From Tychonema litorale BBK16 (GTDB taxonomy: Bacteria; Cyanobacteriota; Cyanobacteriia; Cyanobacteriales; Microcoleaceae): a stretch of DNA of 43,739 nucleotides. The notes below the pieces were generated by a model that did not search any database, was not told the origin of the DNA, and saw only the letters and a list, made by a program, of their open reading frames with translations. The stretch's first letter is position 1. Each line of letters opens with the position of its first letter. The stretch spans positions 1 through 43,739 of the forward strand of contig NZ_JAKJHX010000018.1 of the NCBI RefSeq assembly GCF_021648855.1, given 5' to 3'. A program made the position numbers and the translations under genes. This document shows positions 11,607-32,388 of the stretch, in pieces.

Positions 11607-11607
11607 C

Positions 11608-11943
11608 GTGTCAACTTAAGCTGTCAGTCCGCCAAATTCTCTCGCTCACCCGGCAGTCCGACAGGGGTTGAAACCCCTGTCTAATAGCTAAAGTCCTCTC
11701 AAAGAGGACTGAAGAACTCATTAGATCAATTCCGGTTGCACCGGAATAATATAGAGGAGACGGCAGTGCCGTTTCCCTACCCAAAATAATCTTGTAGGGA
11801 CTAAGGCCAAGCCGTCTCCTAATTTCGGTTAATAATAATTCCGATGCTACCGGAATTGATATTAGTCCTCTTTGAGAGGACTTTCGCTTTGAGGCAGGGG
11901 TTTCAACCCCTGCCGGACTATGAGTTGTACCTTAAGTTGACAC
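11608..11943. repeat. 336-bp nested inverted-repeat structure
   Basis: The outer perfect 13-bp arms are GTGTCAACTTAAG (11608-11620) and CTTAAGTTGACAC (11931-11943). Inside, 11655-11710 and 11874-11919 are inverted relatives; each holds AGGGGTTGAAACCCCT or its equivalent and an AGTCCTCTCAAAGAGGACT palindrome. In the centre lies a 66-bp double-palindrome unit (11755-11820) that also occurs, reversed, at 38907-38971. No open reading frame fills it. This is the main content of the 510-bp gap between tkt and the hybrid kinase gene. Confidence 0.8.
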
Positions 11944-11995
11944 CAATGCACGGTGCTGTGCGGCGCCTGTGAGGGCGGGCACGGGGGCACCGCCC

Positions 11996-14900
11996 CTACG
12001 TGAGGGCCACTATAGCTTCAGCTAACAGTTCAGGTTCCAGGGGTTTGATCAGGTGCTGTTGATAGCCACTGGCGATCGCTCGCTGGCGATCGTCTTCTGT
12101 GGCATAGGCTGTCACAGCGATCGCCGGCAACTGTCCCCCTTGTTCGGGTGGTAGAGCGCGGATCTGTTGGATCAGGGTATAGCCATCGACTTCGGGCATT
12201 CCAATATCGCTGACGAGCACGTCGGGTTGAAAGGATTTCAGGCTTGTCAGCACTTCTGCCACAGAGGCAACTGTCAGCACTTCTGCTCCATATTGGGTCA
12301 GCAATGCGGTTAATAGCTCGCGGGTATCAAGTTCATCATCGACTGCAAGGACTCGAATTCCTGTGAGATCGAAGATTTGTGGTGGCAAATCGCTTGTCTG
12401 GTTGTTTTCTGGCTCAACATTCAGCAAGGGCAACAGCACCGTAAACGTGGCTCCCAACCCTTTACCGGGGCTGTCTGCCACGATCGTGCCACCGTGCCCC
12501 TCCACTAACTGACGGACGATCGTTAACCCCAACCCTAGCCCGCCATACTTACGGGTGGTTGAAGCATCTTCTTGTCGAAATGACTCAAAGATATACGGTA
12601 GAAAGTCAGGGTTGATGCCTTTACCCGCGTCGCTGACTGTAATCCGTGCCTGGTTGTCGATTTGCTCCAACCGAATGTCTACCCGTCCATGATTGGGGGT
12701 AAATTTGATCGCGTTAGACAGCAGGTTCCAAATTACTTGCTGGAGTCGAGCCGCATCGCCAGACACCAGCCCAATTTTGGGGAGCACCGGATGAATCAGG
12801 ATTGATTTGGCGACGGCTGCTGCTCTCACGGTGTCGATCGCCGATTCAATGATAAATATCAGGTTGACGGGAGCCGTATCTATGCTGAGTTTGCCGCGCA
12901 AAACTTTGGCAATGTCGAGCAAGTCCTCAATCAGTTTGGCTTGCAGTTTGGCATTACGTTCAATCGTTGCCAGTGCTTCGGCCGTTTTAGCAGGATCGAA
13001 GTTGCGAGTTTGCAGCAGTTTTGCCCAACCCAAAATTGGATTCAGGGGCGATCGCAACTCGTGGGAGAGAACGTTTAGAAACTCATCTTTGATCCGATTA
13101 GCTCGTTCGGCTTCTGCTCTGGCTGCTTGCTCCTGTTCAAACAGGCGATCGCGTTCGGTTTCAGCTTGCTTGCGATCGGTGATATCCCGTGAAATCGCCA
13201 GGACTCGTTCCACCAGCCCAGAGGCATCCAAAATTGGGCTAACAATCACTTCCCACCATTTGGGCGTGCCTTTGGCGGTTGGGCAGTAGCCGCGAAAGAG
13301 GTAGATTTCGCCTGATGCGGCCGCAGCAAATGCTTGCTCTGCCTGTTGCCGATGGTCGCCATCCCAAAAGCAGAGCCATTCGGTATTCAGGTAAGGAGCA
13401 ATGTCATCAATTTCTAGCAAACACAGCCCACCCGTATTCATATAAAGGAGCTGCCCATCCAGGCTTAGTACCTTGATGCAGTCTGGACTGCTCTCTAACA
13501 TCCGATTCTTAAATTCTTCACTCTGTCGCAACGCTTCTTGGGCTTGTTTACGATCGGTGATATCTTCAGCAATCCCGGCAAACCGATAAATCTCTCCTGC
13601 ATCGTCTCGAAGCGGAAAGCAGCGATCGTGCACCCAACGAATTTTGCCATCGCCCAAGACAAGACGGTACTCTTCATCAAATTGACCTGCGGCTGCTTTT
13701 TCCTGAAACGCTCTGGCAATCCATTCCCGATCGTCTGGATGAATATAATCGATCCAGGCTTGTCGATCGTCATATAATTCCTGCGGGTTGAGCCCCCACA
13801 AACGTTCAAAGGCTGGACTGACATAGCACACTCGGTCTTCGGGCATCTCTTTGATCCAGAACACGGCATCAATATTTTCGGCCAACTGACGGAAGCGTTC
13901 TTCACTTTCTCGCAGCACTTCGGCGATCAGTTTGCGTTCCGTGATATCGATATCCATGCCCGCCATCCGCATCGGCTGTCCGTTTTGGTCATAAAACACT
14001 TTTCCCTGAGTGAGTGTCCAGCGAATAGTGCCGTTAGGATATACCACCCGAAATTCAATGTCATAATCTTCTCCGGTGGCGATCGCACGATCGACGTTTG
14101 CCAAAACACGATCGCGATCGTCCGGGTGCAGCCGATCGACAAACATCTCAAAGGAGCCGTCAAACTCTCCTGGTTGAATTCCAAATAAGGCTTCCAGATT
14201 CTCCGACCATAAAATTTTTCCCGTCTGGAGGTTCCAGTTCCACCTTCCCATGCGAGAGGCTTGCAATGCCAAATTTAGCTGTTCTGTGCTGTCTCGTAGC
14301 TCCACTTCTACCCGTTGGCGTTCAATTAATTCATGCTGTGCCTGCTGGTAAAGTTCCGCTTGCCGCAGGGCGATGCTCACCTGAGTTGCCAGTTCTTTGA
14401 GCAGGTCAATTTCTAAGGGCTGCCACGATCGCGGTGCAGCACAGTGATGGGCAATCAGCAATCCCCAAAACTGGTTTTCATGCAGGATGGGTACGACTAG
14501 ATTGGCTTTGACTTGAAACTGAGCCAACAATTCAACGTGGCAAGGATCGATGCTGCCATCGTGAACATCAGCGATCGCCGTTACCTGACCCTGCCGGTAG
14601 CGTTCGACATAATCTTCGGCCAAGGTGGGATCGTAGGTGATTGATGGCGATCGGCTGAATCTGAGGTACTTCTGGGCGAGGCAGGGATCGTACATGGTGG
14701 AGGAGAGCAGCGATCGCCACTCTGACCCCACTGATTCTGCCACCACCGTCCCGTTGCCATCTGGTTGTAGCCGAAAAAACAGAACGCGATCGGTGTGCAG
14801 AAATTGTTGCACCTCCGTCACCGTCGTTTGCAGAATTTCCTCCAGATCCAGAGTTTGATGTATCTTCCGGGTAATCTGGGAGATTAAGCGCTCTCGTTGG

Positions 14901-15319
14901 AGAGACTGTTGCAGTTGGGTGTGAAGCTGCACTGTAGCGATCGCCCCATTCACTGCCCGATGCAACCCCGCTGGGGTAATGTGCTCCTTGACCAGATAGT
15001 CTTGTGCCCCTGATTTCATGGCTTGCACCGCGATCGCCTCATTGCCTTGCCCCGTGACCACAATCACTGGCAAGTACGGCTGCTGCGTGAAGGATTGCAG
15101 TTTGACGAGAAATTCCAGTCCATCCATGTCGGGTAATCGGTAATCAAGCAATAGGGCATCCGGTTGATGTTGCTGGCACAGCTCTAGCCCGATGCGCCCC
15201 AGACTTGCTTCTAGAATCGTGTAAGAGTAATCTCGATCGCGCAGCAGATAGCGACGATAGAGTTCCCGGTCTTCAGGAGAATCATCCACAATTAAAATAG
15301 TGCGCGAGAGTTTACCCAT
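11996..15319 (-). CDS. Hybrid sensor histidine kinase: REC-GAF-PAS3-HisKA-HATPase-REC
   Basis: A 1107-residue soluble kinase. An N-terminal receiver has acceptor D59 (LLLDYRLPD) and K111. A GAF domain at about 155-320 resembles cyanobacteriochromes: it has a Cys-His pair C260-H261 in DPCHVELLAQFQVKANLVVP and a second Cys in DPCL (C213), with about 19 extra residues between them. Three PAS domains follow (each ending in a DITDRK or DITERK box, the first with GRWNWNLQTGKILW), then HisKA with LSHELRSPLNPIL, an HATPase (NLLSNAIKF, GLGLGLTIV) and a C-terminal receiver with LVSDIGMPE. It lies 20 bases downstream of the Rcp-like regulator and probably belongs to the phytochrome operon. It lacks membrane helices. 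Whether the GAF binds a bilin is an inference. Confidence 0.92.
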   Translation of the reverse strand: MGKLSRTILIVDDSPEDRELYRRYLLRDRDYSYTILEASLGRIGLELCQQHQPDALLLDYRLPDMDGLEFLVKLQSFTQQPYLPVIVVTGQGNEAIAVQAMKSGAQDYLVKEHITPAGLHRAVNGAIATVQLHTQLQQSLQRERLISQITRKIHQTLDLEEILQTTVTEVQQFLHTDRVLFFRLQPDGNGTVVAESVGSEWRSLLSSTMYDPCLAQKYLRFSRSPSITYDPTLAEDYVERYRQGQVTAIADVHDGSIDPCHVELLAQFQVKANLVVPILHENQFWGLLIAHHCAAPRSWQPLEIDLLKELATQVSIALRQAELYQQAQHELIERQRVEVELRDSTEQLNLALQASRMGRWNWNLQTGKILWSENLEALFGIQPGEFDGSFEMFVDRLHPDDRDRVLANVDRAIATGEDYDIEFRVVYPNGTIRWTLTQGKVFYDQNGQPMRMAGMDIDITERKLIAEVLRESEERFRQLAENIDAVFWIKEMPEDRVCYVSPAFERLWGLNPQELYDDRQAWIDYIHPDDREWIARAFQEKAAAGQFDEEYRLVLGDGKIRWVHDRCFPLRDDAGEIYRFAGIAEDITDRKQAQEALRQSEEFKNRMLESSPDCIKVLSLDGQLLYMNTGGLCLLEIDDIAPYLNTEWLCFWDGDHRQQAEQAFAAAASGEIYLFRGYCPTAKGTPKWWEVIVSPILDASGLVERVLAISRDITDRKQAETERDRLFEQEQAARAEAERANRIKDEFLNVLSHELRSPLNPILGWAKLLQTRNFDPAKTAEALATIERNAKLQAKLIEDLLDIAKVLRGKLSIDTAPVNLIFIIESAIDTVRAAAVAKSILIHPVLPKIGLVSGDAARLQQVIWNLLSNAIKFTPNHGRVDIRLEQIDNQARITVSDAGKGINPDFLPYIFESFRQEDASTTRKYGGLGLGLTIVRQLVEGHGGTIVADSPGKGLGATFTVLLPLLNVEPENNQTSDLPPQIFDLTGIRVLAVDDELDTRELLTALLTQYGAEVLTVASVAEVLTSLKSFQPDVLVSDIGMPEVDGYTLIQQIRALPPEQGGQLPAIAVTAYATEDDRQRAIASGYQQHLIKPLEPELLAEAIVALT

Positions 15320-15339
15320 GATTACTATTAATTTATTAA

Positions 15340-15813
15340 TTACTTCTCTAGGCGATCGGGCAATGTTGTCACTTCAAACCAGTAATCTACGAGCAGTTGC
15401 ACATCTCGTTTCAGTTGAGCAAAGTTGATAGGTTTAATCATGTAGCTGTTGACACCATATTGGTAACAGTCTTCGATATCTTTTGGGTTATTGGAAGTTG
15501 TAAAGACTACTACCGGAATGGTTTTCAGGCTCTTATCTTGTTTGATCCGGCGCAATACTTCCCGTCCATCGGTGCCGGGCAGATTTAGATCAAGCACAAT
15601 CATACCGGGACGGGGCGCACTTTTAGGATCGACATAGCTGCCAGTTCGATAAAGAAATGCCAATGCCTGCTCGCCATTCACGCACCGCTGGATGGGAACG
15701 ACTTTGGGCGATTGCCGTAAAAATCGTTGTAATGCCTCAAAGTCTTCGTTGCTGTCTTCTACAATTAACAGCGGTGGGGTTTTTCCGATCGAGAGAGTTG
15801 AACTGTGAGTCAT
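15340..15813 (-). CDS. Rcp1-like response regulator
   Basis: This is a 157-residue single receiver domain. Acidic pocket IVEDS, phospho-acceptor D75 in IVLDLNLPG, the Thr/Ser site VFTTSNNP, and K127 in YMIKPINF fit the Rcp/CphRR family that accepts phosphate from cyanobacterial phytochromes, including the long loop FLYRTGSYVDPKSAPRPG. Its start codon overlaps the stop of the bacteriophytochrome gene by four bases (ATGA), indicating translational coupling and a cognate kinase-regulator pair. No DNA-binding output domain is present, so it acts by protein contact or as a phosphate shuttle. Confidence 0.93.
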   Translation of the reverse strand: MTHSSTLSIGKTPPLLIVEDSNEDFEALQRFLRQSPKVVPIQRCVNGEQALAFLYRTGSYVDPKSAPRPGMIVLDLNLPGTDGREVLRRIKQDKSLKTIPVVVFTTSNNPKDIEDCYQYGVNSYMIKPINFAQLKRDVQLLVDYWFEVTTLPDRLEK

Positions 15814-18065
15814 GCAATTGCCCCCGCTGCCAGAGTGAAATAAAACGTACTACCTTGAGCAGGGGTAGATTCAACCCAAATTCTGCCCCCGTGCCGCTCC
15901 ACAATTTTGCGGGCGATCGTTAATCCTACCCCTGTGCCGCCACTGAAGTCATCTCGTCCATGCAAGCGGCGAAATATCTGAAAGATTTTGTCGAGATGCT
16001 CCTGCAAGATGCCAATGCCATTATCACGCACGTAGAAGGTCAGGGGGTAAAGGTCAGAATTTTCTTCATTCCCTGCGATGAAACCAATTTCGATCCACTT
16101 GGATGCTTTATCGTTGTATTTAATCGCGTTGCTGATCAGGTTGGTCAAAAGTTCATTCACCTGAGCCAGATCGCCATTAATGCTGGGCAATGGTTGGGGA
16201 ATCCGAAACTCGACTTCGTTTTGTGGGCGGGCAATAGTAAGGGTGGCGATCGTCTGATGCACCAACTCATCCAAATTCACCGTTTGCCACATCAGTTCGG
16301 TGCGACCTAACCGCGAGAAATGGAGGAGTGAATCGATCAGGTCTTCCATCCGCTGAGTCAGCCGCACCAGAGTTTGCAGTTTCGCAATCCCATCGTCGTC
16401 GATCACTTCTTCATAGTCCTCCATCAAGAAATGGGCGTAGTTGTGAATGCCCCGCAGCGGCTCTTTCAGGTCGTGGGAGGCAATGTAGGCAAACGAGTCT
16501 AGGTCTTCATTGCTCCGCTGCAATTCAAAGTTCATCGCTGACAGCTCATCTGCCTGCCGCAACACCACACCCACAATCAGGCTTCGCAGCTCAGCCACCG
16601 CTTCAATTTCACAGGGTTTCCAGGGCACGGCACAGCCTTGCACCGTTTCCTGCCACAAGTCAAAGGATTGTCGCGGAGACATCCGCAAACTGCCATCTGT
16701 CAACACTTCCACCGGCTTGTTAGGGTTGCCGGCCCACTTCACGGTTTGCATCACCTCGGGACGAAACCACAGAATGTAATTGCGGTGAACTTTAGAAATT
16801 TCTATTGCTAACACGCCACTGGCGATCGCCTTAAACGATTCGGCAGCAGGATAGTGTTTAGAGAGCGATCGGGTTTCAAACAAGCTGCGATCCAATTGAG
16901 GTTTAATCCAATCGAGCAAGGCGTGAACAGATTCCTCTGATGGCGTTTCACCCACTTGAAAATACTGATCGCCCCTGCAACTCACCACTCCGGTGGCATT
17001 CACTAGATTCAGTAGTTGAAATTTCAGTTGCACCATCCCATCCACCAAATACTCAGCCTGAGACAATGCCTCGACAAATTGAGTTTGCAAAGACTTCAAT
17101 TGCATTTTGTAGTCAATCTCCTCGCTGGCTGCTTTGTTCATTAGTTCCACAGACATCACCTGCCCAATAAACTCGCAAATAGTGCGAATATTGTAGGGAA
17201 CATATTTAGGCGACAAGTGATGGCAGGCGATCAATCCCCAGAGCTTTTGATCGTGCATTAGAGAAATGGACATAGAAGCATCCACGCCCATATTTTGCAG
17301 GTACTCTAGATGAATTGGCGACACACTTCGCAACACCGACAAACTCAAATCGAGCGGTTGATTAGTGAAGGGATTGGTCGCTGGAATTAAGGTAACGGGC
17401 TGGTAGCTGGTAGTTGGAATCAGTCGCAGCCAGTTGAGCGTGTAGAGCTGTCTGGCTTGCTTGGGAATGTCGGAGGCTGGGTAGTGCAAATTCAGATAGG
17501 ACAGTTCTTGATTGGTGTCTTCAGCAATCACGCTGCCTGTCCCGTCTGGATCGAATCGGTAAACCATGACGCGATCGAAGCCAGTGATCCGTCGGACTTC
17601 CTTAACTACGATCTGGGACATATCCAGCAACGTGGGTGCTTTTTGAATCCCAGTAATGGTTCCTTTTACCTGTTGATAAAAGTCAAAGAAGTCTGTTTTT
17701 CCCTTGGCTTTTTTCGGCTCCAATTCTAGTACAATGGCATCCTCTAAACGATGCACAATCCCATCAAAATAGATCGATTTATTCCGCCGCTTGATCGACA
17801 AATTGAGGGGATTGATGCGCTCAAAATCCTCTGCCAGACATTGTTGAATCAGCTTAATCTGCTTGGCATCCAATAAGTCTGACAACGGCTTGCCCAGCAA
17901 CTCCTCCGGTTGGCGACCCATCACTGCTTCGGTATTGCGGCTCACCTGAACGATTTCTAGGGTGGGATTCTGCAAAACCAGCAAAACCCCGTGCGGCTGA
18001 ATCAGCCCTGGAATATGAATCGGTTCGCGATCGCAGTTAGTCAAATCAATCGTCACATCAGTCAT
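15810..18065 (-). CDS. Bacteriophytochrome (biliverdin-type) histidine kinase
   Basis: This 751-residue photoreceptor has domains PAS (about 15-125), GAF (145-310), PHY (330-505) and HisKA-HATPase. C11 in LTNCDREPIHIPG is placed as the biliverdin-binding Cys of BphP-type phytochromes. The GAF site where Cph1 carries its phycocyanobilin Cys reads RSVSPIHLEYL, with no Cys but the conserved His (H252). The PASDIP motif (199-201) and the PHY tongue PRQSF (464-468) are intact. The kinase His is H531 (IASHDLKEPLR), with NLISNAIKYN, DNGIGI and GGTGVGLTI boxes. So it should be a red/far-red biliverdin sensor, similar to CphB. The start is ATG 18065; the TTG at 18143 adds an unconserved Asn-rich stretch. 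The stop overlaps the Rcp gene. Confidence 0.95.
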   Translation of the reverse strand: MTDVTIDLTNCDREPIHIPGLIQPHGVLLVLQNPTLEIVQVSRNTEAVMGRQPEELLGKPLSDLLDAKQIKLIQQCLAEDFERINPLNLSIKRRNKSIYFDGIVHRLEDAIVLELEPKKAKGKTDFFDFYQQVKGTITGIQKAPTLLDMSQIVVKEVRRITGFDRVMVYRFDPDGTGSVIAEDTNQELSYLNLHYPASDIPKQARQLYTLNWLRLIPTTSYQPVTLIPATNPFTNQPLDLSLSVLRSVSPIHLEYLQNMGVDASMSISLMHDQKLWGLIACHHLSPKYVPYNIRTICEFIGQVMSVELMNKAASEEIDYKMQLKSLQTQFVEALSQAEYLVDGMVQLKFQLLNLVNATGVVSCRGDQYFQVGETPSEESVHALLDWIKPQLDRSLFETRSLSKHYPAAESFKAIASGVLAIEISKVHRNYILWFRPEVMQTVKWAGNPNKPVEVLTDGSLRMSPRQSFDLWQETVQGCAVPWKPCEIEAVAELRSLIVGVVLRQADELSAMNFELQRSNEDLDSFAYIASHDLKEPLRGIHNYAHFLMEDYEEVIDDDGIAKLQTLVRLTQRMEDLIDSLLHFSRLGRTELMWQTVNLDELVHQTIATLTIARPQNEVEFRIPQPLPSINGDLAQVNELLTNLISNAIKYNDKASKWIEIGFIAGNEENSDLYPLTFYVRDNGIGILQEHLDKIFQIFRRLHGRDDFSGGTGVGLTIARKIVERHGGRIWVESTPAQGSTFYFTLAAGAIA

Positions 18066-18782
18066 GTTGAGGCTCTCGAATTCCTTATTCTTTTGATTGT
18101 TATTGTTTTGATTGCGCCGCCCGTGGAAATCGCGATCGAGCAAATACAGTGTATCCCAAGTTTATAAAATAAAGACTTCATCAACCTGGAATAGGCTGTA
18201 GCTTACGCCCGAACTTCAATTTTCAAGCATTCCCAACAGGGTTATGCTTAGCGACACAGCTTGTTGCATATTTTTACTCACAACTATCCTGATTCATTTT
18301 TATCAGAAAATTGGGTTGAAAACCCCGTTACTTCGGCAGAGTTTATCCTGAGCGGAGCGATGTCCTGAACCCTTCGATTTCGCTCAGGATAAACGCAGTC
18401 GAAGGGTTCAGGACATCGCCTTATAGGACGGCTTTAATTCAAGTATATACGATGGGTCACTTTCAACTTGGGGAATAGAAAGTTGAGGAGTCAATATAAT
18501 TGGTGTCTCAACTAGACATTACCTACAAAAACTTCTTTGAATGACGAGAATTTCCTAAATTCAAAAATCGGAGTAACTTTACTTCTTTTACCTTCGTAAT
18601 GGGAGTAAAAATACAAGGCAATAAAATTTACCTACCCAAACTAAGTTGGATGCGGTTTTACAACTCACGCTCAATCCCTGATGGTTTTACCATAAAGAAT
18701 TAGTAATAAGCGTCAAGCATATCAATGGAAAACTGCTAGGCTGGGGAGTGTCAATCTATTGATTACCTGTAAATCACACCTT
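18066..18782. other. 717-bp divergent intergenic region
   Basis: This gap separates the phytochrome unit (minus) from the ethylene-receptor-like unit (plus) and must hold both promoters. Positions 18342-18418 carry a double interleaved inverted repeat (listed separately). The rest is AT-rich with no convincing open frame. I could not pick out a confident -35/-10 pair or a known operator. Confidence 0.6.
18342..18418. repeat. Two interleaved perfect inverted repeats (pseudoknot-like topology)
   Basis: Arm A TTTATCCTGAGCG (18342-18354) pairs with CGCTCAGGATAAA (18381-18393). Arm B CGATGTCCTGAACCCTTCGA (18358-18377) pairs with its exact complement at 18399-18418. The order is A-B-A'-B', so both stems cannot form as one simple hairpin. 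The flanking GTTACTTCGG and CGCCTTATAGGACGGCTTT segments recur in degenerate form at 32937-33030, indicating a dispersed repeat. Confidence 0.85.
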
Positions 18783-21593: not shown

Positions 21594-21629
21594 ATATTTA
21601 GTTTAGATAATCACAAGGATACGCCAATT

Positions 21630-22076
21630 ATGAGCGCTCAAATCCAAGTTAAACCAGTAGAAATTTTGTTGGTTGAAGACTCTCCCAGCGATGCTGACTT
21701 GGCAATGGAAGCCCTCAGTGACGGAAAAATTTTGAATAATTTGCATTTTGTAGAGGATGGAGTCGAAGCAATCAAGTTTTTACGAAAGCAAGCACCATAT
21801 ATCAAAGTACCGCGTCCCGACTTAATTTTGCTAGATTTGAATCTGCCGAAAAAAAGCGGTATAGAAGTGCTCCAAGAAATTAAGACAGACCAAAATTTAA
21901 AAAGAATTCCTGTACTAATTCTTACCACTTCATCAGCCCAAGAGGATATTATCAAGTCCTACTCGCTGCACGCAAACTGTTACATTACGAAACCAGTAGA
22001 TTTTTTACAATTTACTAAGGTAGTTCGCTTAATTGAGGAATTCTGGCTAACAGTCGTCAAACTTCCTGTCATTTAA
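21630..22076 (+). CDS. Rcp1-like response regulator
   Basis: This 148-residue single receiver domain has acidic pocket LVEDSPSDAD, phospho-acceptor D69 in LILLDLNLP, LTTSSAQED and the conserved Lys in CYITKPVDF. The loop FLRKQAPYIKVPRPD is typical of the Rcp family paired with phytochrome-type kinases. It starts 36 bases after the ethylene-receptor-like kinase, so it is the probable phosphate acceptor of that sensor. It parallels the phytochrome-Rcp pair on the opposite strand. No output domain. Confidence 0.93.
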   Translation: MSAQIQVKPVEILLVEDSPSDADLAMEALSDGKILNNLHFVEDGVEAIKFLRKQAPYIKVPRPDLILLDLNLPKKSGIEVLQEIKTDQNLKRIPVLILTTSSAQEDIIKSYSLHANCYITKPVDFLQFTKVVRLIEEFWLTVVKLPVI

Positions 22077-22211
22077 TTGATTAAGAAGTTCTGGTGGGCT
22101 GTGATGCCCCTTGCCAAACTATAATTTTAAAGTTAAAAATAGAAGGAAAAGCCCCAAAATTTCATAGGATATTTGCAGAGTTCATATCTGAGGAGAAATA
22201 ACGTCAAAGTT

Positions 22212-23714: not shown

Positions 23715-23795
23715 GAGCTAAATCATAAATTAAACAAACATAAAAAAAACATAAAAAGCCATAATTAACATCATAAATCACCAGGAGCAATAAAC

Positions 23796-24884
23796 ATGGC
23801 AAAGATTTTGGTAATAGAAGACGAAGAAGCGATTAGAGAAAACATTTTAGAGTTGCTAGCAGCCGAGAATTTTGAATCAATAGGAGCAGCCAACGGTAAA
23901 TTAGGTATCAACATGGCGATCGCACAAATTCCAGATTTAATTTTGTGCGACATGATGATGCCGGAAATTGACGGTCACGGCGTTCTCAAAGCTTTGCGAT
24001 CGGAACCAATAACTGCCACAATTCCATTTATTTTCCTCACAGCCAAAGCCGAAAAAACTGACATTCGCCTCGGTATGGAACTCGGAGCCGACGATTACAT
24101 AACCAAGCCTTGCACCCCTCAAGAACTACTCAAAGCAGTTGTTATTCGACTTGATAAACACAAAGCAATTAGCAAAAAATCCCAAAAAACACTAGACGAA
24201 TTGCGCTCTAATATTAGTATGTCATTACCTCATGAATTGCGGACTCCTTTGAATGCAATCATGGGTTTTTCCGAGCTAATATTATCAGAATATAGCATCT
24301 TACAAGAATCGGAAATCTTAGAAATGATCGGTTATATCCAACTTTCCGGTCATCGCTTGTACCGACTGATTCAGAATTTTTTGCTATATACTGATCTGGA
24401 AATGGCCGCAACCAATCCCAAACTGCTCAAGGAGATGCAAAATAGCGAATTTAGCTGCGTAGAGTCTTTGCTATCTGAAAAAGCCAGACAGCAAGCAAAG
24501 CAGGCAAATAGATTAGACGACTTACACTTAAACTTGCAAAATTCATCGGTGGCAATTGATTCGATTAAGCTCACAAAAATTCTTGAAGAACTGCTTGATA
24601 ATGCGTTCAAATTCTCCTCAGAGGGAAGCCCAGTTCTTGTGAGCGCTTTTGTTGAAAATCAGAGGTTCATTCTGTCTGTGAAAGACCAAGGGCGTGGCAT
24701 GACAGCCGCTCAGATTGCACAACTTGAAGCTTATATGCAGTTCGATCGCCAACTTTACCAACAAGCAGGTTTGGGATTAGGCCTGGCGATTGTCAAACGT
24801 ATTACAGAATTGCACGGAGGAAGCTTAAAAATAGAATGTTCCACAGATCAAGCAACCATAGTATCCGTTTGTCTACCAGTCTAA
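23796..24884 (+). CDS. REC-HisKA-HATPase histidine kinase
   Basis: A compact 362-residue kinase with good AGGAG ribosome site twelve bases ahead of ATG 23796. The receiver has VIEDEEA, D52 in LILCDMMMPEIDG and K104 in YITKPCTPQ. HisKA follows with H146 in SLPHELRTPLNAIMGF. The ATPase domain has ELLDNAFKFS, DQGRGM and AGLGLGLAIV boxes, so it should be active. No sensory domain is present, so input must come through the receiver. It ends the plus-strand unit and is convergent with the adenylate cyclase gene, across a 73-bp gap holding a palindromic repeat. Confidence 0.93.
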   Translation: MAKILVIEDEEAIRENILELLAAENFESIGAANGKLGINMAIAQIPDLILCDMMMPEIDGHGVLKALRSEPITATIPFIFLTAKAEKTDIRLGMELGADDYITKPCTPQELLKAVVIRLDKHKAISKKSQKTLDELRSNISMSLPHELRTPLNAIMGFSELILSEYSILQESEILEMIGYIQLSGHRLYRLIQNFLLYTDLEMAATNPKLLKEMQNSEFSCVESLLSEKARQQAKQANRLDDLHLNLQNSSVAIDSIKLTKILEELLDNAFKFSSEGSPVLVSAFVENQRFILSVKDQGRGMTAAQIAQLEAYMQFDRQLYQQAGLGLGLAIVKRITELHGGSLKIECSTDQATIVSVCLPV

Positions 24885-24898
24885 TACACCAGATTAAT

Positions 24899-24947
24899 TG
24901 TAGGGACACGGCACTGCCGTGTCCTGATTTCTGCCGTGTCCTGATTT
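24899..24947. repeat. Palindromic repeat (copy of CGGCAGTGCCG family) with 17-bp tandem duplication
   Basis: GTAGGGACACGGCACTGCCG starts at 24900 and completes the usual palindrome. Then CTGCCGTGTCCTGATTT occurs twice in tandem (24914-24930, 24931-24947). The palindrome sits between convergent stop codons and could act as a two-way terminator. Confidence 0.75.
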
Positions 24948-24957
24948 CTTTCTTCAG

Positions 24958-27564
24958 TCAAGCAGTGGCAATAGTTTGTTTTAGACACCGCTGCATATAA
25001 ATTTGAGCGACATTATCCGCAGGATTCTGTTCCAAACAGGCTGAAAATAATATTGTAGCTTCTATAAACCTGTTCGCATGATAAGATACCAAAGCTTGTT
25101 CAAAGATGGTTTTTGTATCTGACTTTTTCTGGCGCAACTCCGGCAAATCAGCAGCAAATACTTCATAAACAGTTACCATTTGCGATTTACCTTTGACTTT
25201 AACGCGATCGAGCAACCTCAAATCGTAAACTTCTTCCAACTCTATAAAAGTATTGTGAGTAATTAACATCGATACTCCATACTCTTTCGTCAAATTTTCA
25301 ACTCTCGAAGATAAATTCACCGCATCACTAATCACCGTACTATCCATCCGATTTTGCCCCCCAACAGTCCCCAACATTAAAGAACCTGTATTGACCCCAA
25401 TGCCAATTTGCAACAAAGGGCGATCGGGTTGAGTATGAGTAGAATTGTATTCATTTAGTTGCTTCAGCATCGCAATTCCAGCTTTCACAGCATTGTCCGC
25501 ACTACCATCAAACAATGCCATAATTGCATCACCAATGTATTTATCAATAAAACCATGATTTTCAGCAATTACTGGTTCCATCCTCGATAAATAAGCATTA
25601 ATAAATTTAAAAGTTTCTTCGGGATTCATAGTTTCAGATAGCGTTGTGAAGTCGCGAATATCTGAAAATAGCACCGACATTTCTTTCTGTATCTGATCCC
25701 CTAATTTCACATCAAGAATACTTTCATATCCCAGAAAGTGGAGAAATTGATGTGGTACGAATCGCCCGTAAGCATCTGTTAATTTTTCTTCTGCTGCTAG
25801 AGCATTTTCTAATTCGTCTGTGAATTGGCGACGCTCTTTATCTAACTGTTGACGTTCTGTGATATCTTGAAATGCAGCGATCGCATAAACTATATTTTTC
25901 GCTTCATTGTAGATTGGCGTCGCCCAAACCTCGATCGGCACAATCCCATCTGCGCCGTGAATTTCTGCATCATCAACCCGCACAACTTCTCCCCGCAGCG
26001 CCCGAATCATCGGTTGGCGATCGATCGGATACAATTCATTAGTATCAGCGCTATAAAATTGATAAACTTCAGGCAATTGCTGATTAGCCACATCAGAAAT
26101 TAAACCTTGGGCTAGTATCCTTTCTCCACAACAATTCATGTAAAAAGGCTGGCCCTTACCATCAACAACAAATATGCCCACCGGCATCGCTTCCAGAAAT
26201 TGAGTCAATCGGCTTTCATTTTCCAACAGTGCCTCATTTAACTTCTCTTCTGCTAGTAAAGCTTTTTCTAAATCATTTGTAAACCTCACCCGTTCCACTT
26301 CCACCTGTCTTCGCAAACTAATATCCTCAGCAAAACCCTGATAGTAAAGCACTTCACCATCAGCACCATAAATTGTACGTGCATACTCAGAAATCCAGAT
26401 CATTCTACCATCTCGACAATAAACCTCAGACTCAAACTCAGACACAGTACCGTGCTGTTTAATCAGCGCCATAAACTCTTGACGGCGATGCGGTTCCACA
26501 TACAATTGATGCTGAATATCATTAACACTTTCTATCAATTCTTCGGGAGAATCATAGCCATATATTTGAGCAAGAGCAGGATTAGCACTCAGAAAATGTC
26601 CATCCTGCGTAGTCTGAAAAATACCTTCAAGAGCATTTTCAAATATCCCGCGATACTTCTCCTCAGCTTGAATTAACGCTGCTTCCACTGCCTTGCGTTC
26701 CGTAATATCAGTAAAAGCAATAATCCCACAGGAAATTTCCCCTAGAGAATCATAAATTGGAGTTGCCCAACTCTCAACAGGAATAATCTTGTTTCCCGCA
26801 CGAATTTCTACATCTTCAGTCCGCAAAACTTCACCCCGGAGTGCCCGCATAATTGGCAGTTCTTCAACAGGACATCTCTGATTAGTTCCTGATTTATAAA
26901 ATTGATAAATTGCTGCTTTTTGCTCAGAATTAATATGAGGTACAGTGCCTCTACCAAATATCTCCCGCGCTTTCTGATTTGCATAAAAAGATTGACCACT
27001 CGCATCAAGCACGCACACACCCAACGGCATCGCTTCCAAATATTGCGTCAAGCGACTTTCGTTTTCATGGAATTTCGCAATCAGCATCGCCTGTTTGCGG
27101 TTTAATTTTGCTAATTCCTGATTCATCTCCTGAAGTTCTACTTGTTTTTCCGCAAGTTGCTTATCCTGAAAATACCTATATATTGCCTCTGTCACTGTTA
27201 GCTTTAAATCGTCACTCTGCCAAGGCTTAGCGATATAGCGATATAATTTGGCATAGTTAATAGCATTGGTAACCGCCGACAAATCAGCTTGCCCAGTTAG
27301 CATAATAGTCAGAGATTTCGGAGATATAGCATGAACGTTCCTTAATAGCTCGTCTCCTTTCATATTAGGCATGATATGATCGGAAATAATCAAAGGGACT
27401 TCATAATTATCTGCCAGTAAATCTGATAGTAACTCTAAGGCCTCTTTGCCACTTTCTGCCGTTTCAATTAAATATTTATCTTCAAAGGCTTTGAGCAAGT
27501 CTATTTCCAGACTATCTAGTATAGTCTGCTCGTCATCTACACAAATAATTACTGGTTTTTTCAT
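24958..27564 (-). CDS. REC-PAS3-class III adenylate cyclase
   Basis: An 868-residue soluble cyclase. The N-terminal receiver has D62 (LIISDHIMPNMKGDE) and K113 in IAKPWQSDD. Three PAS modules follow; the first (about 169-290) and third (449-571) are near duplicates, sharing SRLTQ(Y/F)LEAMP, ALRGEV and WATPIY. The catalytic domain from about 625 has metal aspartates D635 and D679, the adenine-selecting Lys K675 and the Asp in VISDAVN, and the NLSSRVE Asn/Arg. So ATP cyclase activity is expected. The C-terminal 60 residues are helical, with a TPR-like repeat (YHANRFIEATILFSACLEQNP). It overlaps the preceding REC gene by four bases (ATGA). It resembles CyaC-type phospho-regulated cyclases, but without a kinase domain of its own. 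Confidence 0.92.
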   Translation of the reverse strand: MKKPVIICVDDEQTILDSLEIDLLKAFEDKYLIETAESGKEALELLSDLLADNYEVPLIISDHIMPNMKGDELLRNVHAISPKSLTIMLTGQADLSAVTNAINYAKLYRYIAKPWQSDDLKLTVTEAIYRYFQDKQLAEKQVELQEMNQELAKLNRKQAMLIAKFHENESRLTQYLEAMPLGVCVLDASGQSFYANQKAREIFGRGTVPHINSEQKAAIYQFYKSGTNQRCPVEELPIMRALRGEVLRTEDVEIRAGNKIIPVESWATPIYDSLGEISCGIIAFTDITERKAVEAALIQAEEKYRGIFENALEGIFQTTQDGHFLSANPALAQIYGYDSPEELIESVNDIQHQLYVEPHRRQEFMALIKQHGTVSEFESEVYCRDGRMIWISEYARTIYGADGEVLYYQGFAEDISLRRQVEVERVRFTNDLEKALLAEEKLNEALLENESRLTQFLEAMPVGIFVVDGKGQPFYMNCCGERILAQGLISDVANQQLPEVYQFYSADTNELYPIDRQPMIRALRGEVVRVDDAEIHGADGIVPIEVWATPIYNEAKNIVYAIAAFQDITERQQLDKERRQFTDELENALAAEEKLTDAYGRFVPHQFLHFLGYESILDVKLGDQIQKEMSVLFSDIRDFTTLSETMNPEETFKFINAYLSRMEPVIAENHGFIDKYIGDAIMALFDGSADNAVKAGIAMLKQLNEYNSTHTQPDRPLLQIGIGVNTGSLMLGTVGGQNRMDSTVISDAVNLSSRVENLTKEYGVSMLITHNTFIELEEVYDLRLLDRVKVKGKSQMVTVYEVFAADLPELRQKKSDTKTIFEQALVSYHANRFIEATILFSACLEQNPADNVAQIYMQRCLKQTIATA

Positions 27565-27956
27565 AATTTTGCCAGACCAGATTTAATCGCTGCAATTAGT
27601 TCATCATTTTTCCAAGGTTTTTGCAAAAAAGCATGGAGGTTGGCTTGAGTTTTAGTTCGTTCAATTGCTGCTTGGTCAGCTTGTCCCGTTAGCATAACTG
27701 TAACAATTTTAGGATATTTTTGATGAATCTTAATCAGCAATTCATCTCCCTTCATTCCGGGCATGAGCCAGTCTGAGACAATCACCAGAATATTAATCTC
27801 ATCTTCACATAGCTCATCAATAATCTCCAGTGCTTCCGCAGCACTTTCAGCAAATTCGCAGAGATAATTTCCCTTAAATGCTCGTTGCAGTTCTATTTCC
27901 AGACTTTCCAAAACCGATATTTCATCGTCAACACACAAAATTGCTGGTTTAGGCAT
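27561..27956 (-). CDS. Stand-alone response regulator receiver
   Basis: This 131-residue receiver has acidic pocket CVDDEISV, phospho-acceptor Asp in LVIVSDWLMPGMKGDE, VMLTGQADQ and the conserved Lys in FLQKPWKNDE. The LTGQAD and KPW signatures are shared with the receiver at the N-terminus of the following adenylate cyclase, so the two look like duplicates of one domain. The start is set at ATG 27956, preceded by AGGAAACTAACT; ATG 27971 is possible and adds five residues. It is coupled to the cyclase gene by an ATGA overlap. Confidence 0.9.
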   Translation of the reverse strand: MPKPAILCVDDEISVLESLEIELQRAFKGNYLCEFAESAAEALEIIDELCEDEINILVIVSDWLMPGMKGDELLIKIHQKYPKIVTVMLTGQADQAAIERTKTQANLHAFLQKPWKNDELIAAIKSGLAKL

Positions 27957-28082
27957 AGTTAGTTTCCTCATTTATTCTGGCATTCTGGCAAAGCTCGGAC
28001 AATCAGCCAGATTGCATAATTTTGCAATCCATACTGCCTCTTTCTTCGATAACATAACCAGTTTACTTCTTTCTACCCCGCT

Positions 28083-29519
28083 TTACTTAATTGGTAAAGT
28101 CATCGGCAAATACACTATAAATGTAGTTTGAGCAGGCATCGAAGTCACATCAATTTTACCATCGTGTTTTTCAATTATTTTCCTAACAATATCCAATCCC
28201 AAACCACTGCCTTCTCCCATAGGTTTAGTAGTAAAGAACGGCTCAAAAATTTTCGGTAAAATCTCTGGAGCAATACCCTTGCCACTGTCGGTGACGCTTA
28301 CTTTTAACCAGCTATCTTGCTGTACTATATCAATCCTTAAAATTCCTTTATTTTCCATAGCCTGTAAGGAATTGTGAACTAAATTTGTCCAAACTTGATG
28401 AAGTTCATCAGGATAACACAATACCATCGGTACTTGGGATTGATAATTTCTGACGACTTCGACACCATGTTTAAGTTGGTTCTGATAAAGAGTTAGTACA
28501 GTTTCGATTCCTTCAACAATATTCATCTCTGATTTTTCAGCATTCAAGTCATAACGCGCATAATTTTTCAGGGCAAACACGACTTTGGCTGCACGTTCTG
28601 TAGCGGTGGCGATAGTTTTGGCGCTTTTCTGAATGCTAGAAAACTCGTAAGCTGTCTTGAGAATTTTTTCGCTATCCGGGTCTTTTAAAAGCGGTAAGAA
28701 CGATTGTACGTCTGTCTGCAAGCCGATATTGATTAAAATACTCGCAAGACTGTCAGCATTACCAATCTGTTGCAACTCTAGCTGCTGCCTCACACCTCTT
28801 TTAAATTCCCGTTTTTCTCGCGTAGATAAAGAGTAATTCTGTTGGTTAGAAGTGTGCATTAAATTAACGAAATCTTGCTGTCTTTCTGTTGACAGTTCTT
28901 TGAAAAAGACGGGTAAAGTTTCCAGATTATTATCCAAAAAATTGGTGATATTTCCGATGGAAGATCGAATTGCTCCTAGGGGCGTATTGATTTCGTGAGC
29001 AATCCCAGCAATCAGTTGTCCCAATGCTGCCATTTTTTCCGACTGTACCAACTGATTTTGAGTTTCTTTAAGTTGTTCTAAAGTGAGTGTTAATTCCTCA
29101 TTTTTTTGTTTGAGTTTATTTTGCAAATTACACATTGCCAAGTGAGTTTCTACCCGAACCAAAACCTCTTCCATTTGAAAAGGCTTGGTAATATAATCTA
29201 CACCACCTACAGCAAAAGCTTTTACCTTGTCTAGCACGTCATTAATCGCACTAATAAAAATTACTGGAATATCGCGAGTGCGTTCATCTGCTTTGATTCT
29301 TTCGCAAACTTCATACCCATTCATTTCTGGCATCATAATGTCCAGCAAAATCAAATCGGGAGGCATACCCCTAGCAGCAGAAAGTGCCAATTCGCCATTG
29401 GGGACGGGGCGGACTTTATAGCCTTTTCCGTTCAATATTCCCGCTAGCAGTCGCAAATTAGCTGGTGTATCATCAACTACTAAAATATTGCCGCGATCAG
29501 TATTTATGTCGTTATTCAT
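28083..29519 (-). CDS. REC-HisKA-HATPase histidine kinase
   Basis: A 478-residue soluble kinase. The receiver has LVVDDTPAN, DLILLDIMMPEMNGYE and YITKPFQMEE. A coiled-coil linker (NKLKQKNEELTLTLEQLKE) leads to a HisKA of the type EKMAALGQLIAGIAHEINTPLGA, then an unusually long helical insert of about 130 residues before the ATPase domain (WTNLVHNSLQAM, DSGKGI, GEGSGLGLDIV). This matches a cyanobacterial kinase family with N-box HNSLQA. The start is ATG 29519, within the sequence ATGAATAA that also ends the upstream gene, giving an eight-base overlap and likely translational coupling. Confidence 0.92.
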   Translation of the reverse strand: MNNDINTDRGNILVVDDTPANLRLLAGILNGKGYKVRPVPNGELALSAARGMPPDLILLDIMMPEMNGYEVCERIKADERTRDIPVIFISAINDVLDKVKAFAVGGVDYITKPFQMEEVLVRVETHLAMCNLQNKLKQKNEELTLTLEQLKETQNQLVQSEKMAALGQLIAGIAHEINTPLGAIRSSIGNITNFLDNNLETLPVFFKELSTERQQDFVNLMHTSNQQNYSLSTREKREFKRGVRQQLELQQIGNADSLASILINIGLQTDVQSFLPLLKDPDSEKILKTAYEFSSIQKSAKTIATATERAAKVVFALKNYARYDLNAEKSEMNIVEGIETVLTLYQNQLKHGVEVVRNYQSQVPMVLCYPDELHQVWTNLVHNSLQAMENKGILRIDIVQQDSWLKVSVTDSGKGIAPEILPKIFEPFFTTKPMGEGSGLGLDIVRKIIEKHDGKIDVTSMPAQTTFIVYLPMTLPIK

Positions 29520-32388
29520 GGTATTTTGTTTCAGCAATTAAATTCAACACTTTATCGTACTCAAAATTATCCATACAATTTGCAATCGCCCCCCCCATTA
29601 ACTGATCCTGCAAGCTAATCTTTTCGACTAAGCTGTATATTGAATCCATATCAATATTGAGTATCGACTGCTTTAACTCAGCTACTAGCTGCTGGGGCAA
29701 AGCATTGAAAGCGCTTACAGTTAGTACCTCCTGCTCGCAATTGTTTGTTTTTAATACATTAGCTTGAGTTATGTTTTCATAAATATAGCGCACTCCTATA
29801 TGTTTATGCATAGCATCAAAAATCTCGGCTTCCCGGAAAGGTTTCCGCATAAAGGCATCGCAACCCGCTGACAAAATAACTGCTCGCTCCTCTTCCAAAA
29901 CGCTAGCGGTGAGTGCAATAACCGCAGTAGCTTGACCTTTGACAGTACCTTTAATGTGTTTCGTCGCTTCGTAACCGTCCATCACGGGCATTCTCATGTC
30001 CATCCAAATTAAATGCGGTTCCCAGTTGTCCCAAATTTCAATAGCTTCTTGACCATTTATTGCTTCTTTCAGTTGAAAGCCCAGAGGATGGAGGATTTTG
30101 ACTAATAGTTGGCGATTTAGTGGTTTGTCGTCTACTATCAAAATTCGATATAAGTGTTGATTTGGTTCAAGGGCAATCACATTGCGAGTGGGTTTTTTGG
30201 TTTCAATTTCAGTACCTTCCACCGCAATAACTTGAATGTCAAACTTAAAATTTGTGCCTTGTCCTACGCAGGAACTTACACTCATTTCGCCACCCATTAA
30301 TTCTACAAATTTGCGACTGATTGGCAATCCCAATCCTGTACCTTCTTGGGATTCTTTGCCTATTTGTGTTTGCACAAAAGCTTCAAAAAGACTGTCTAAT
30401 TCTGCATCGGCAATACCGGGGCCTGTATCTTCTACTTCAAAATGAAGCAAGAAGGAAGAGTCATAAGTGGAATCATTAATGGGAATTGGGGATGTAAAAT
30501 TCGCGTTTTCATACAGACTGACTTGGGAATTTTCAATGTCATTATTGGCGGGAATTTTTAAATTTAGTAATTTTTCTGAAAGCTCAAGTTTTTCGCCGAT
30601 CGCCTCTTGGTTTCTGGATTTTACCTGCTTGCTGATTCTGACCGAAACACCCCCTTCATCAGTGAATTTAAGAGCGTTGTTGAGTAAATTAATTAAGACT
30701 TGTCGTAATTTTAATTCGTCAGTTTCCACGTATTGTGGTAAATCGGGAGCGAGGTCGAAGATCAACTGTAATTTTTGGTCATCTGCTTTTAATTGAAACA
30801 TATCTTCTACGTCGCATAGCAGGCGATAAAGGTCAACTTTTTTGGGATTGAGGGTGGTGCGTCCTGCTTCGATTTTGGATAAATCTAAAACGTTGTTAAT
30901 TAGGGTGAGCAGGTGTTCTCCGCTGCTGCTAATGATGTTCATATTTTCTTGGTCTTCTGGGGATAGAGTTTGGCTGCGAGTCATCAGTTGGGAAAAGCCG
31001 AGAATTGCATTCAAAGGCGATCGCAATTCGTGACTCATGTTGGCTAGAAAGGTACTTTTAGCTTGATTGGCTACTTCGGCTTTGTCTTTAGCTATAGCTA
31101 ATTCCGCAGTCCGCTGTTGCACTCGATGTTCCAAGGTTTCAAAAGACTGTTGTAGTTGTTGAGCCATGCTGTTAAAGGATTTTCCCAAGTCTCCCAATTC
31201 GTTGGCTCCTTCAATTTTTACTGTTTTATCCCATTCACCTTTAGCAATATTTTTGGCTGCTATGTTTAATCGCCAAATAGGATTTGTCACCCACCGAGAA
31301 GTAAGAATTCCGATAACTATAGCTACTGCTAAAGCTGCTAAACACAACCAAATTGTCATGCGGGTATTTGCATCAATTTCTTCGGTGAAGTCAGCTTCGG
31401 GAACAACCACGACAATCAGCCAGTCTAAACTTTTGCCATCTTGGAATGGCAAGACTGTTATAAATTGTCGTTTTTTTTCTATTTCAAAATTAAGGAGATA
31501 AGACTTTTTGATTTCTTTTAATTCCCGAAAATAAGCTGCTACATATTTTGCTGTAGCTTGAGTCGAAGGGTTAACGCTTTCTTGTGCTGTAAATAGTTCT
31601 TTTTTATTGTCTCTGGTACGGAACGGTTTTTCCGAAGTAGAAGTTGCCAGTAGCGTACCGTTTCTTTCGATAATAAATGCCTGTCCAGATTTACCAACTC
31701 TGAGGCTGTTTAAAAATTGACCGATGTGATCAAGGCGCAAGGCGGTAATTAACACTCCTTCGAGCTGTTTTTTGTCGTCATACACTGGTTGAAGAGCGCT
31801 GATGATTAATGTCGGTTCTAAAAAGGAAATATAAATGGAACTCCAGGTTGGTTTTCCTGCTTTAGCAGCATTTTGGTAGGAAGGATGTTGGCGGATGTCA
31901 AAGTTTTTGACAGAGGTTGCTAATGTAGTGCGATCGCCTGTATTGTTAGTATTGTAAGAATAGAAGTCAAACTCAGTAGATTTGCCTGACACATTAATCA
32001 TTAGGGAGCCATTTGACAGCTTTTCTCCGGTTCGATATTCTCCATTTTTATTGCCAATTGATGTAAAATTGATATAAGGATATAATTGTACTTGTCGCCA
32101 AAGATATTTCTCCCAACTTGACAAATCATTTATGTTTAACAGCCCCAGTTTGACTGCATCCAACTTGCTTTGATTGATTTGATGGGGAGTTGTGAGGTAA
32201 ACTTGGAGGTTTTGCTCGACGCGAGAACTAACTTCACTCATTAACTGACTGGCAAGATTATTAACTGCTTTTTGTCCATTTCTAAATGACAGATATCCTA
32301 CCAGTCCTACGGCTCCGACGATTTGCAACACAAAGGGAACTATCAGTACAGTTCGGAGTGGGAGTTTATCTAAAAGTTTAAAAACCAT
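29512..32388 (-). CDS. Transmembrane hybrid histidine kinase: dCache-HAMP-HisKA-HATPase-REC
   Basis: A 958-residue membrane sensor. Helix 1 is at about 12-34, followed by a periplasmic dCache-like domain of about 300 residues (YPYINFTSIGNKNGEYRTG, GQAFIIERNGTLLATS, WLIVVVVPEADF). Helix 2 is at about 340-362. HAMP, coiled coil, HisKA (NMSHELRSPLNAIL) and an HATPase (NLLNNALKF, GTGLGLPI) follow. The ATPase domain has an inserted polar loop of about 40 residues between the N and G1 boxes. The receiver has LIVDDKPLNRQ, LIWMDMRMPVMDGYE and MRKPFRE. The C-terminal 80 residues are helical. It is the first gene of a four-gene minus-strand unit and the likely ligand sensor that feeds the REC proteins and cyclase downstream. 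Confidence 0.93.
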   Translation of the reverse strand: MVFKLLDKLPLRTVLIVPFVLQIVGAVGLVGYLSFRNGQKAVNNLASQLMSEVSSRVEQNLQVYLTTPHQINQSKLDAVKLGLLNINDLSSWEKYLWRQVQLYPYINFTSIGNKNGEYRTGEKLSNGSLMINVSGKSTEFDFYSYNTNNTGDRTTLATSVKNFDIRQHPSYQNAAKAGKPTWSSIYISFLEPTLIISALQPVYDDKKQLEGVLITALRLDHIGQFLNSLRVGKSGQAFIIERNGTLLATSTSEKPFRTRDNKKELFTAQESVNPSTQATAKYVAAYFRELKEIKKSYLLNFEIEKKRQFITVLPFQDGKSLDWLIVVVVPEADFTEEIDANTRMTIWLCLAALAVAIVIGILTSRWVTNPIWRLNIAAKNIAKGEWDKTVKIEGANELGDLGKSFNSMAQQLQQSFETLEHRVQQRTAELAIAKDKAEVANQAKSTFLANMSHELRSPLNAILGFSQLMTRSQTLSPEDQENMNIISSSGEHLLTLINNVLDLSKIEAGRTTLNPKKVDLYRLLCDVEDMFQLKADDQKLQLIFDLAPDLPQYVETDELKLRQVLINLLNNALKFTDEGGVSVRISKQVKSRNQEAIGEKLELSEKLLNLKIPANNDIENSQVSLYENANFTSPIPINDSTYDSSFLLHFEVEDTGPGIADAELDSLFEAFVQTQIGKESQEGTGLGLPISRKFVELMGGEMSVSSCVGQGTNFKFDIQVIAVEGTEIETKKPTRNVIALEPNQHLYRILIVDDKPLNRQLLVKILHPLGFQLKEAINGQEAIEIWDNWEPHLIWMDMRMPVMDGYEATKHIKGTVKGQATAVIALTASVLEEERAVILSAGCDAFMRKPFREAEIFDAMHKHIGVRYIYENITQANVLKTNNCEQEVLTVSAFNALPQQLVAELKQSILNIDMDSIYSLVEKISLQDQLMGGAIANCMDNFEYDKVLNLIAETKYHE

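Follow-up and report, generated by a model that had tools for sequence, protein, structure and literature searches.

A dense block of eleven two-component and cyclase genes in Tychonema litorale BBK16, probably composed of three separate cassettes

Introduction

Ethylene-binding-type N-termini carried on histidine kinases have been described for SynEtr1/UirS-Slr1213-Slr1214 of Synechocystis and GeiEtr1/2 of Geitlerinema, and in Synechocystis the regulator genes adjoin the kinase gene (available text of PMC6508509 and PMC6682694). The same papers and a review (PMC5812497), in their accessible portions, report ethylene receptors that alter phototaxis in both organisms, and the Geitlerinema paper groups a gene with a diguanylate cyclase domain with GeiEtr2. 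In Azospirillum, the gene of the ethylene receptor kinase AzoEtr1 is followed just downstream by that of a 135-aa REC-only regulator, AzoRRetr1; according to the available part of the report, neither REC-kinases nor a cyclase lie beside them (PMC11819568). In Anabaena, far-red light has been connected to cAMP through AphC, a phytochrome-like kinase thought to activate the class III adenylate cyclase CyaC by phosphorylation (PMC4284465, accessible text). One further paper (PMC7656254) concerns, in its accessible text, another pilus-linked system. No title on a bacterial ethylene-receptor-to-cAMP pathway has been found among the matches listed, in a search with limited reach into the subscription literature. 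In the CphB/RcpB system of filamentous cyanobacteria, a PAS-GAF-PHY kinase that has an N-terminal Cys and lacks the Cph1-type GAF Cys is followed by an RcpB-type REC protein.

The gene block described here is found in Tychonema litorale BBK16. The window, which is the whole stretch of 43,739 nucleotides that has been analysed, comes from contig C18; the genome measures 5.27 Mb, and most of its close named relatives belong to Microcoleus or Tychonema. The eleven genes, numbered g1 to g11 by position, are divided into a phytochrome unit (unit 1), an ethylene-receptor-type (ETR) unit (unit 2) and a cyclase unit (unit 3). A preliminary description of this DNA proposed that the three units could form an undescribed light-hormone-cAMP network. 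The block is real, dense, partly conserved and built of known kinds of parts, and it is probably made of three self-contained two-component cassettes rather than one network. A route from light to cAMP also has a precedent in the phytochrome-like pathway from AphC to CyaC in Anabaena, as given in the available text of PMC4284465.

Organization of the block

In the protein searches, the best 7 to 18 first-look candidates per genome have been scored, and results are given among the matches listed. Domains at fetched loci were called with HMMs built for this analysis, with a Pfam check on 30 fetched proteins.

The preliminary description of eleven consecutive two-component and cyclase genes at 11996-32388, with no unrelated gene between them, is borne out. 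All of the ORFs are present, Pfam confirms the domains that had been named, and no non-overlapping extra ORF of at least 90 aa occurs within the run, the largest gap between listed ORFs being 615 bp (18144-18758). The run is flanked by transketolase (9470-11485) and tRNA-Arg (32840). The three units lie on the minus, plus and minus strands; units 1 and 2 are divergent and units 2 and 3 convergent with a 73-bp gap, so the block is not spanned by a single operon. Probable ATG starts, taken from the translations, are at 18065 (g3), 18783 (g4), 22212 (g6) and 29519 (g10). Overlaps of 4 nt between the g3 stop and g2, and between g9 and g8, make units 1 and 3 look translationally coupled internally.

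The genome as a whole has 128 matches to REC, 29 to the class III cyclase domain and 3 to ETR1_N. A second class III cyclase gene recognized by Pfam lies in the window outside the block (4605-6083). Ten REC matches fall within the 20.4 kb of the block against 0.5 expected from 128 in 5.27 Mb, a Poisson probability of 1.6e-10 that treats the matches as independent, though REC domains come several per gene or operon. A 20.4-kb stretch of contig C6 in the same genome also contains 10 REC matches; ten signalling ORFs follow one another there, separated by less than 300 nt. The clustering is far beyond independent scatter, yet the block is not unique, and the C6 run indicates that such islands are a habit of the Tychonema litorale BBK16 genome.

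Scans of the window for promoters (35 against 33.1, sd 6.1, in shuffles; no clear excess) and terminators (20 against 13.6, sd 3.9) have been left unused. A match to the Rfam model 5_ureB_sRNA (116 bits; 37676-37962, plus strand) has been rejected; it lies antisense inside ureC and is probably the model meeting conserved coding sequence.

The phytochrome unit

Unit 1 is encoded on the minus strand. It comprises the bacteriophytochrome histidine kinase g3 (15810-18065; PAS_2-GAF-PHY-HK by Pfam and solved structures), the single-domain RcpB-type response regulator g2 (15340-15813; REC by Pfam, RcpB by structure match) and the hybrid kinase g1 (11996-15319; REC-GAF-PASx3-HisKA-HATPase-REC by Pfam). 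The best match of g3 to the solved bacteriophytochromes has E 1e-180. Its PAS-GAF-PHY sensor sits on a histidine kinase and has a Cys near the N-terminus, in the motif LTNCDREP, and an Ile where the Cph1-type GAF Cys would stand; the significance of these two positions is assumed here. The best solved-structure match of g2 is RcpB (1k66, E 2e-55), and by these features g3 is a predicted biliverdin-type bacteriophytochrome with an RcpB-type partner beside it and putative photoconversion. The unit resembles CphB/RcpB, with the difference that a REC-GAF-PAS-HK-REC hybrid kinase comes next. We take g3 to be like CphB itself, the tool match being to RcpB only. From gene order and similarity, on which the partner assignments in all three units rest, g3 would phosphorylate g2 and, together with g1, report red/far-red light.

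The phytochrome unit looks like a local extra and a likely later arrival at this site. When the gap between transketolase and the ETR gene in six relatives (L005, L008, L011, L012, L020 and L022) is aligned to the window by blastn, the left alignment ends at 11537-11538 in five of them and at 11545 in L022, and the right alignment restarts at 18755-18783. The window therefore has ~7.2 kb extra, a segment at 11540-18755 that holds unit 1. Transketolase and the ETR gene are both present at 17 loci, of which 15 lack unit 1 between them; the distance from transketolase to the aligned ETR stretch is 0.3-1.5 kb in 15, and the exceptions are L004, with g1 and g2, and L025, with other genes. Eleven of the 28 same-genus genomes encode a phytochrome that matches g3 at 66-94% identity across most of the protein, and only one of them (G006) has it on the ETR contig. 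This is also the only one of the 28 in which g3 adjoins g4, on a contig that ends before g2. G011, on the other hand, has g1 and g2 at the ETR site without the phytochrome.

Other genus members, and one genome from a different family, have relatives of unit 1 at other sites. Bacteriophytochrome and Rcp genes with a g1-like kinase have been found elsewhere at seven loci (G001, G004, G007, G008, G017, G023 and G049; the kinase is a partial match only in G008 and lies 1.6 kb away in G004). Three loci have them without such a kinase (G011, G018 and G026), and one is cut by a contig end (G025).

Four-fold sites suggest that g1 and g2 in G011 have a history unlike that of their neighbours, with horizontal exchange between lineages. 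Between the window and G011, g1 (93% aa identity) differs at 7.4% and g2 at 16.4% of these sites, and the values in transketolase, lysyl-tRNA synthetase and g4-g11 are 26-52%; rows of g1, g2 and g3 that match paralogues only (27-43% identity, partial length), including g3 of G011, are dropped from the comparison. In G006 the difference of g3 (10.7%) is in line with that of the other block genes (6.9-33%), so there is no sign of transfer and ordinary descent fits. The GC content is 51.9% in g1, 46.0% in g2 and 49.0% in g3, against 39.7-42.1% in g4-g11; that of transketolase is 50.4%. Unit 1 was thus probably added at the site in this lineage, with parts that moved between lineages.

These observations make it very improbable that all three units form the light-hormone-cAMP network that had been proposed. 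The idea draws on the adjacency of the units in the Tychonema genome and of g3-g11 in G006, again with the contig ending before g2, and on the kinases of g3 and g4, which are mutual best matches (42%) among the proteins compared. A genome of another family (G068) likewise has a phytochrome unit divergent from an ETR unit, but at one of 60 ETR loci, and the pairing of g3 with g4 in a single genus genome, the 15 gaps without unit 1 and the separate history of g1 and g2 in G011 all weigh the other way.

A 23-base element occurs four times in the window (3646, 7635, 11571 and 11743; 0-2 mismatches), where none is expected by chance; the copies sit in or at the edges of intergenic stretches, two of them close to the left end of the extra segment that holds unit 1. 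On contig C45 of G011 (L174:1-8398), genes for a phytochrome-REC hybrid kinase, a REC-GGDEF-EAL protein, a REC-HK and a Cache-like-HAMP-PAS-cyclase lie on the same strand.

The ethylene receptor-type unit

Unit 2 lies on the plus strand and comprises the ETR-type histidine kinase g4 (18783-21593; ETR1_N-PASx4-HK), the single-domain Rcp-type response regulator g5 (21630-22076; REC by Pfam, with structure matches) and, by Pfam, the kinases g6 (22212-23714; REC-PAS-HK) and g7 (23796-24884; REC-HK). The ETR1_N domain of g4 is recognized on a histidine kinase with E 7e-42 (PF25487). It has no match among the solved structures. Equivalents of AtETR1 D25, Y32, I35, P36, C65 and H69 are present, and these six are the residues scored out of seven; apart from C65 and D25, these numbers are mostly the ones we presume for the binding residues. 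In the accessible text of the two papers concerned, seven residues are needed for ethylene binding in AtETR1 (PMC6682694), and C65 and D25 are named (PMC11819568). By domain and residues, g4 is a putative bacterial ethylene receptor of the SynEtr1 type. The best structure match of g5 is 5te9, followed by RcpA (1k68) and Rcp1 (1jlk/1i3c).

The unit is like the Synechocystis system in that regulator genes adjoin the receptor kinase gene, and like the Azospirillum pair in the REC-only regulator just downstream. As far as the available descriptions go, g4 differs from SynEtr1/UirS in having four PAS domains instead of a phytochrome-like photosensory domain, and the place of its transcription-factor-type regulators is taken in unit 2 by a single REC of the Rcp type and two REC-kinases. 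In the proposed mechanism, g4 would pass phosphate to g5, and g6 and g7 would be tuned downstream kinases. As no enzyme output is encoded in unit 2, it probably acts by protein contact, one conceivable partner being the motility machinery.

The key residues scored in g4-g11 are kept, apart from the Cys that matches the copper ligand of the ETR domain, which is absent in 3 of 24 g4 orthologue loci. It is replaced by Ser in L008 and by Asn in L025, and in L014 a Ser stands at its place with a Cys one place earlier. Unit 2 persists and g8 is kept in all three. According to the accessible text of PMC11819568, AtETR1 and SynEtr1 no longer bind ethylene once this Cys is mutated. With the loss in 3 of 24 orthologues, ethylene cannot safely be assumed as the ligand throughout the g4 family. 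An early indication of stops inside many g4 orthologues has been discarded; in the named loci these are the genes' own terminal stops.

The cyclase unit

Unit 3 is encoded on the minus strand and comprises g8 (24958-27564), a REC-PASx3 class III nucleotidyl cyclase of the Lys/Thr (adenylate) type by Pfam and alignment to CyaB; g9 (27561-27971), a stand-alone REC, and g10 (28083-29519), a REC-HK, both identified by Pfam and paralogues; and g11 (29512-32388), a dCache-HAMP-HK-REC membrane hybrid kinase by Pfam. The cyclase domain of g8 aligns to Pseudomonas aeruginosa CyaB (3r5g). All 28 distinct sequences aligned, a set that includes the window's own and may include one gene cut two ways, retain the metal Asp residues and the Lys, Thr, Asn and Arg. 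With two metal Asp residues and the Lys, Thr, Asn and Arg, in the roles that we take these residues to have, g8 is a predicted class III adenylate cyclase of the Lys/Thr type. It is not a CyaC-type hybrid cyclase, since Pfam finds a single REC and three PAS domains but no kinase domain, and CyaC presumably has a kinase domain between its REC domains and the cyclase in one polypeptide. The window also differs from AphC-CyaC, as the available text presents that system, in the single N-terminal REC and the PAS domains of its cyclase and in a phytochrome unit that is not conserved beside the cyclase.

A cassette of the unit 3 type occurs five times in the genome, in the window and on contigs C25, C52, C106 and C6, and it is duplicated without an ETR gene. 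In the four other copies, the g10-type kinase is 51-62%, the g9-type REC 54-67% and the REC of the g8 type 58-64% identical to its counterpart. In the window, C52 and C106 the g8-type REC is joined to a cyclase effector, in C25 and C6 to a hybrid kinase. The C25 copy repeats the order of unit 3, with a hybrid kinase (62% to g11), a REC-kinase, a REC and a REC-effector, and ends with a REC-GAF-cyclase.

Of 19 loci outside the genus, 13 have a g9-type REC next to a g10-type kinase and 14 contain a protein with a g8-type REC; leaving out L318 and L319, which were chosen for their g8-type REC, gives 13 of 17 and 12 of 17. L310, counted among the 14, shows only a cut 175-aa REC, and in L301 another kinase intervenes. 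Five of the non-genus effectors are, by Pfam, GGDEF (L303) or GGDEF-EAL (L306, L309, L311 and L316) proteins. Across the copies in the own genome and these loci (L301-L319), which span several cyanobacterial families, the output of the cassette appears exchangeable between cyclase, GGDEF or GGDEF-EAL, and kinase.

As unit 3 is a recurrent kinase/short REC/REC-effector cassette, the cyclase has likely kinases of its own, which weakens the earlier suggestion that REC domains tie the block into a phosphorelay mesh. The g8 cyclase most likely obeys the kinases of unit 3, and the simplest wiring is local, from g11 and g10 to g9 and g8. The dCache hybrid kinase g11 and g10 would phosphorylate g9 and the REC of g8 and so set cAMP synthesis, while g9 may serve as a phosphate sink or adaptor.

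Conservation of units 2 and 3

Within the genus, units 2 and 3 are inherited side by side. In 24 of the 28 same-genus genomes a single contig carries the orthologues of g4 and g8, no more than ~8.5 kb from each other; the other four are contig-broken or missing a part. G003 (74% complete) has no g8 orthologue among the matches listed, G023 has pieces of g8 on contigs other than that of g4, and G024 has g4 and g8 on different contigs. In G025, g8-g11 are present on a contig that starts at g8, and nothing matches g4 at E 1e-100. At the 24 named loci with a g4 orthologue, g8 follows unit 2 in 20, and three of the four misses are contigs of 3.5-6.3 kb. L035, without g8 beside g7, has not been counted as a loss; the translated ORF there runs into undefined residues. 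Conservation of the neighbourhood in relatives, which the preliminary description named as a test of its network, thus holds for units 2 and 3 together and fails for unit 1, with g3 beside g4 in one of 28 genomes, and this leaves the three-input network unlikely overall.

Outside the genus, no full-length g8 has been found among the matches listed (59 relatives and 126 class genomes, the own genome counted in both), and no linkage of units 2 and 3 has been seen in the genomes and loci examined. Relatives of single units are found there without one another.

Thirteen relatives whose right flank spans at least 8 kb lack the window's urease side there, whereas G025 has it; six further right flanks are too short, and the flanks have been compared with the window, not among themselves. 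The left flank, with lysyl-tRNA synthetase and transketolase, is common to the genus loci. In L018 a 5-kb stretch of other genes lies between g7 and g8, and insertions at the left edge or in the middle of the block (L018, L025) have not scattered g4-g11. On the right side of the window, an ORF of 580 aa without a Pfam match (33399-35141) adjoins a pentapeptide-repeat gene and has an 84% relative in G025 only, among 20 flank loci.

A reading with a slightly better than even chance, which is compatible with separate cassettes, is plain genomic clustering, in which two-component genes form islands and the linkage of units 2 and 3 reflects shared ancestry in the genus. The second run of signalling ORFs on C6, the shared left flank and the restriction of the linkage to the genus agree with it, whereas the retention of g4-g11 beside a right flank not common to 13 relatives, and the insertions that left the block unscattered, are less readily explained in this way. 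That 24 of 28 genomes keep units 2 and 3 together, although the window's right flank is missing in 13 relatives, also counts against fully separate cassettes and could mean that the two units are coupled.

ETR-type kinases beside cyclases

Another locus of the same genome bears on such a coupling. On C6 (L201:8305-12519), Pfam finds a gene for an ETR-PAS-GAF-HK-REC kinase directly upstream of one for a REC-class III cyclase. An orthologue of the kinase is present in 22 of 29 genus genomes, the own included, with no close match listed in the other seven. The two genes form a pair on one strand in 19 of 20 fetched genus loci (L182-L201), which represent 20 of the 22 genomes with the orthologue, G015 and G027 being left out. 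In L194, the twentieth, the contig ends inside the second gene. A further ETR kinase immediately precedes the pair in 10 of the 20 loci. Of all the observations, the C6 pair points most directly, by its gene order, to an ETR-type input to cAMP, and it is a firmer candidate link from receptor to cyclase than units 2 and 3.

Sixty non-genus ETR loci, which are high-scoring places among the matches listed and not a random draw, contain 61 ETR genes, and the neighbour counts cover these genes alone. Sixteen of the 61 have a REC-PAS-HK or REC-HK gene within 1.5 kb on the same strand. The nearest same-strand neighbour is a REC-GGDEF(-EAL) gene in 7 cases, a REC-cyclase in 1, a lone REC or similar in 7, another two-component gene in 17 and none in 29; REC-GGDEF or REC-cyclase genes thus adjoin 8 of the 61 sampled. 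A general association of ETR kinases with cyclases outside the genus has been discarded, as a class III cyclase lies within ~8 kb at 2 of the 60 loci only (L241 and L261), and L261 alone has the two genes adjacent on the same strand. G068 of another family (L251:106-10456) shares with the window the divergent arrangement of a phytochrome-Rcp-hybrid kinase unit and an ETR-kinase unit, but has a REC-REC-REC-GGDEF gene before the ETR gene.

If units 2 and 3 were one pathway, g4 or g6 and g7 would feed the RECs of unit 3, and a gas and an external ligand would jointly set cAMP. We consider this unlikely, though the genus-wide linkage beside a right flank not common to 13 relatives and the ETR kinase-cyclase pair of the same genome (19 of 20 genus loci) favour it. 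The units are convergent and share no operon, class III cyclases are near only 2 of the 60 non-genus ETR loci, and unit 3 has its own kinases in a cassette duplicated without ETR. Moreover, g8 is still present in all three loci where the copper Cys is lost, and G025 has g8-g11, with g8 at a contig start, and no g4 match at E 1e-100. The reading as three separate cassettes is preferred, with a coupling of units 2 and 3 as a possible addition to it.

Implications

The conserved part of the block, which is the ETR unit with the REC-cyclase unit, the latter an exchangeable cassette, can now be separated from a local phytochrome unit, and the C6 pair of ETR hybrid kinase and REC-cyclase is the better place to test a link from ethylene to cAMP. 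It is doubtful, on present evidence, that ethylene or another copper-type ETR ligand acts on cAMP in Microcoleus-type cyanobacteria through the C6 pair and a coupling of units 2 and 3, and that bacterial ETR kinases widely act on second messengers. If this were true, a gas sensor and a dCache ligand sensor would jointly gate the REC-cyclase g8, and bacterial ETR kinases would feed second-messenger regulators, of cAMP here and of c-di-GMP elsewhere.
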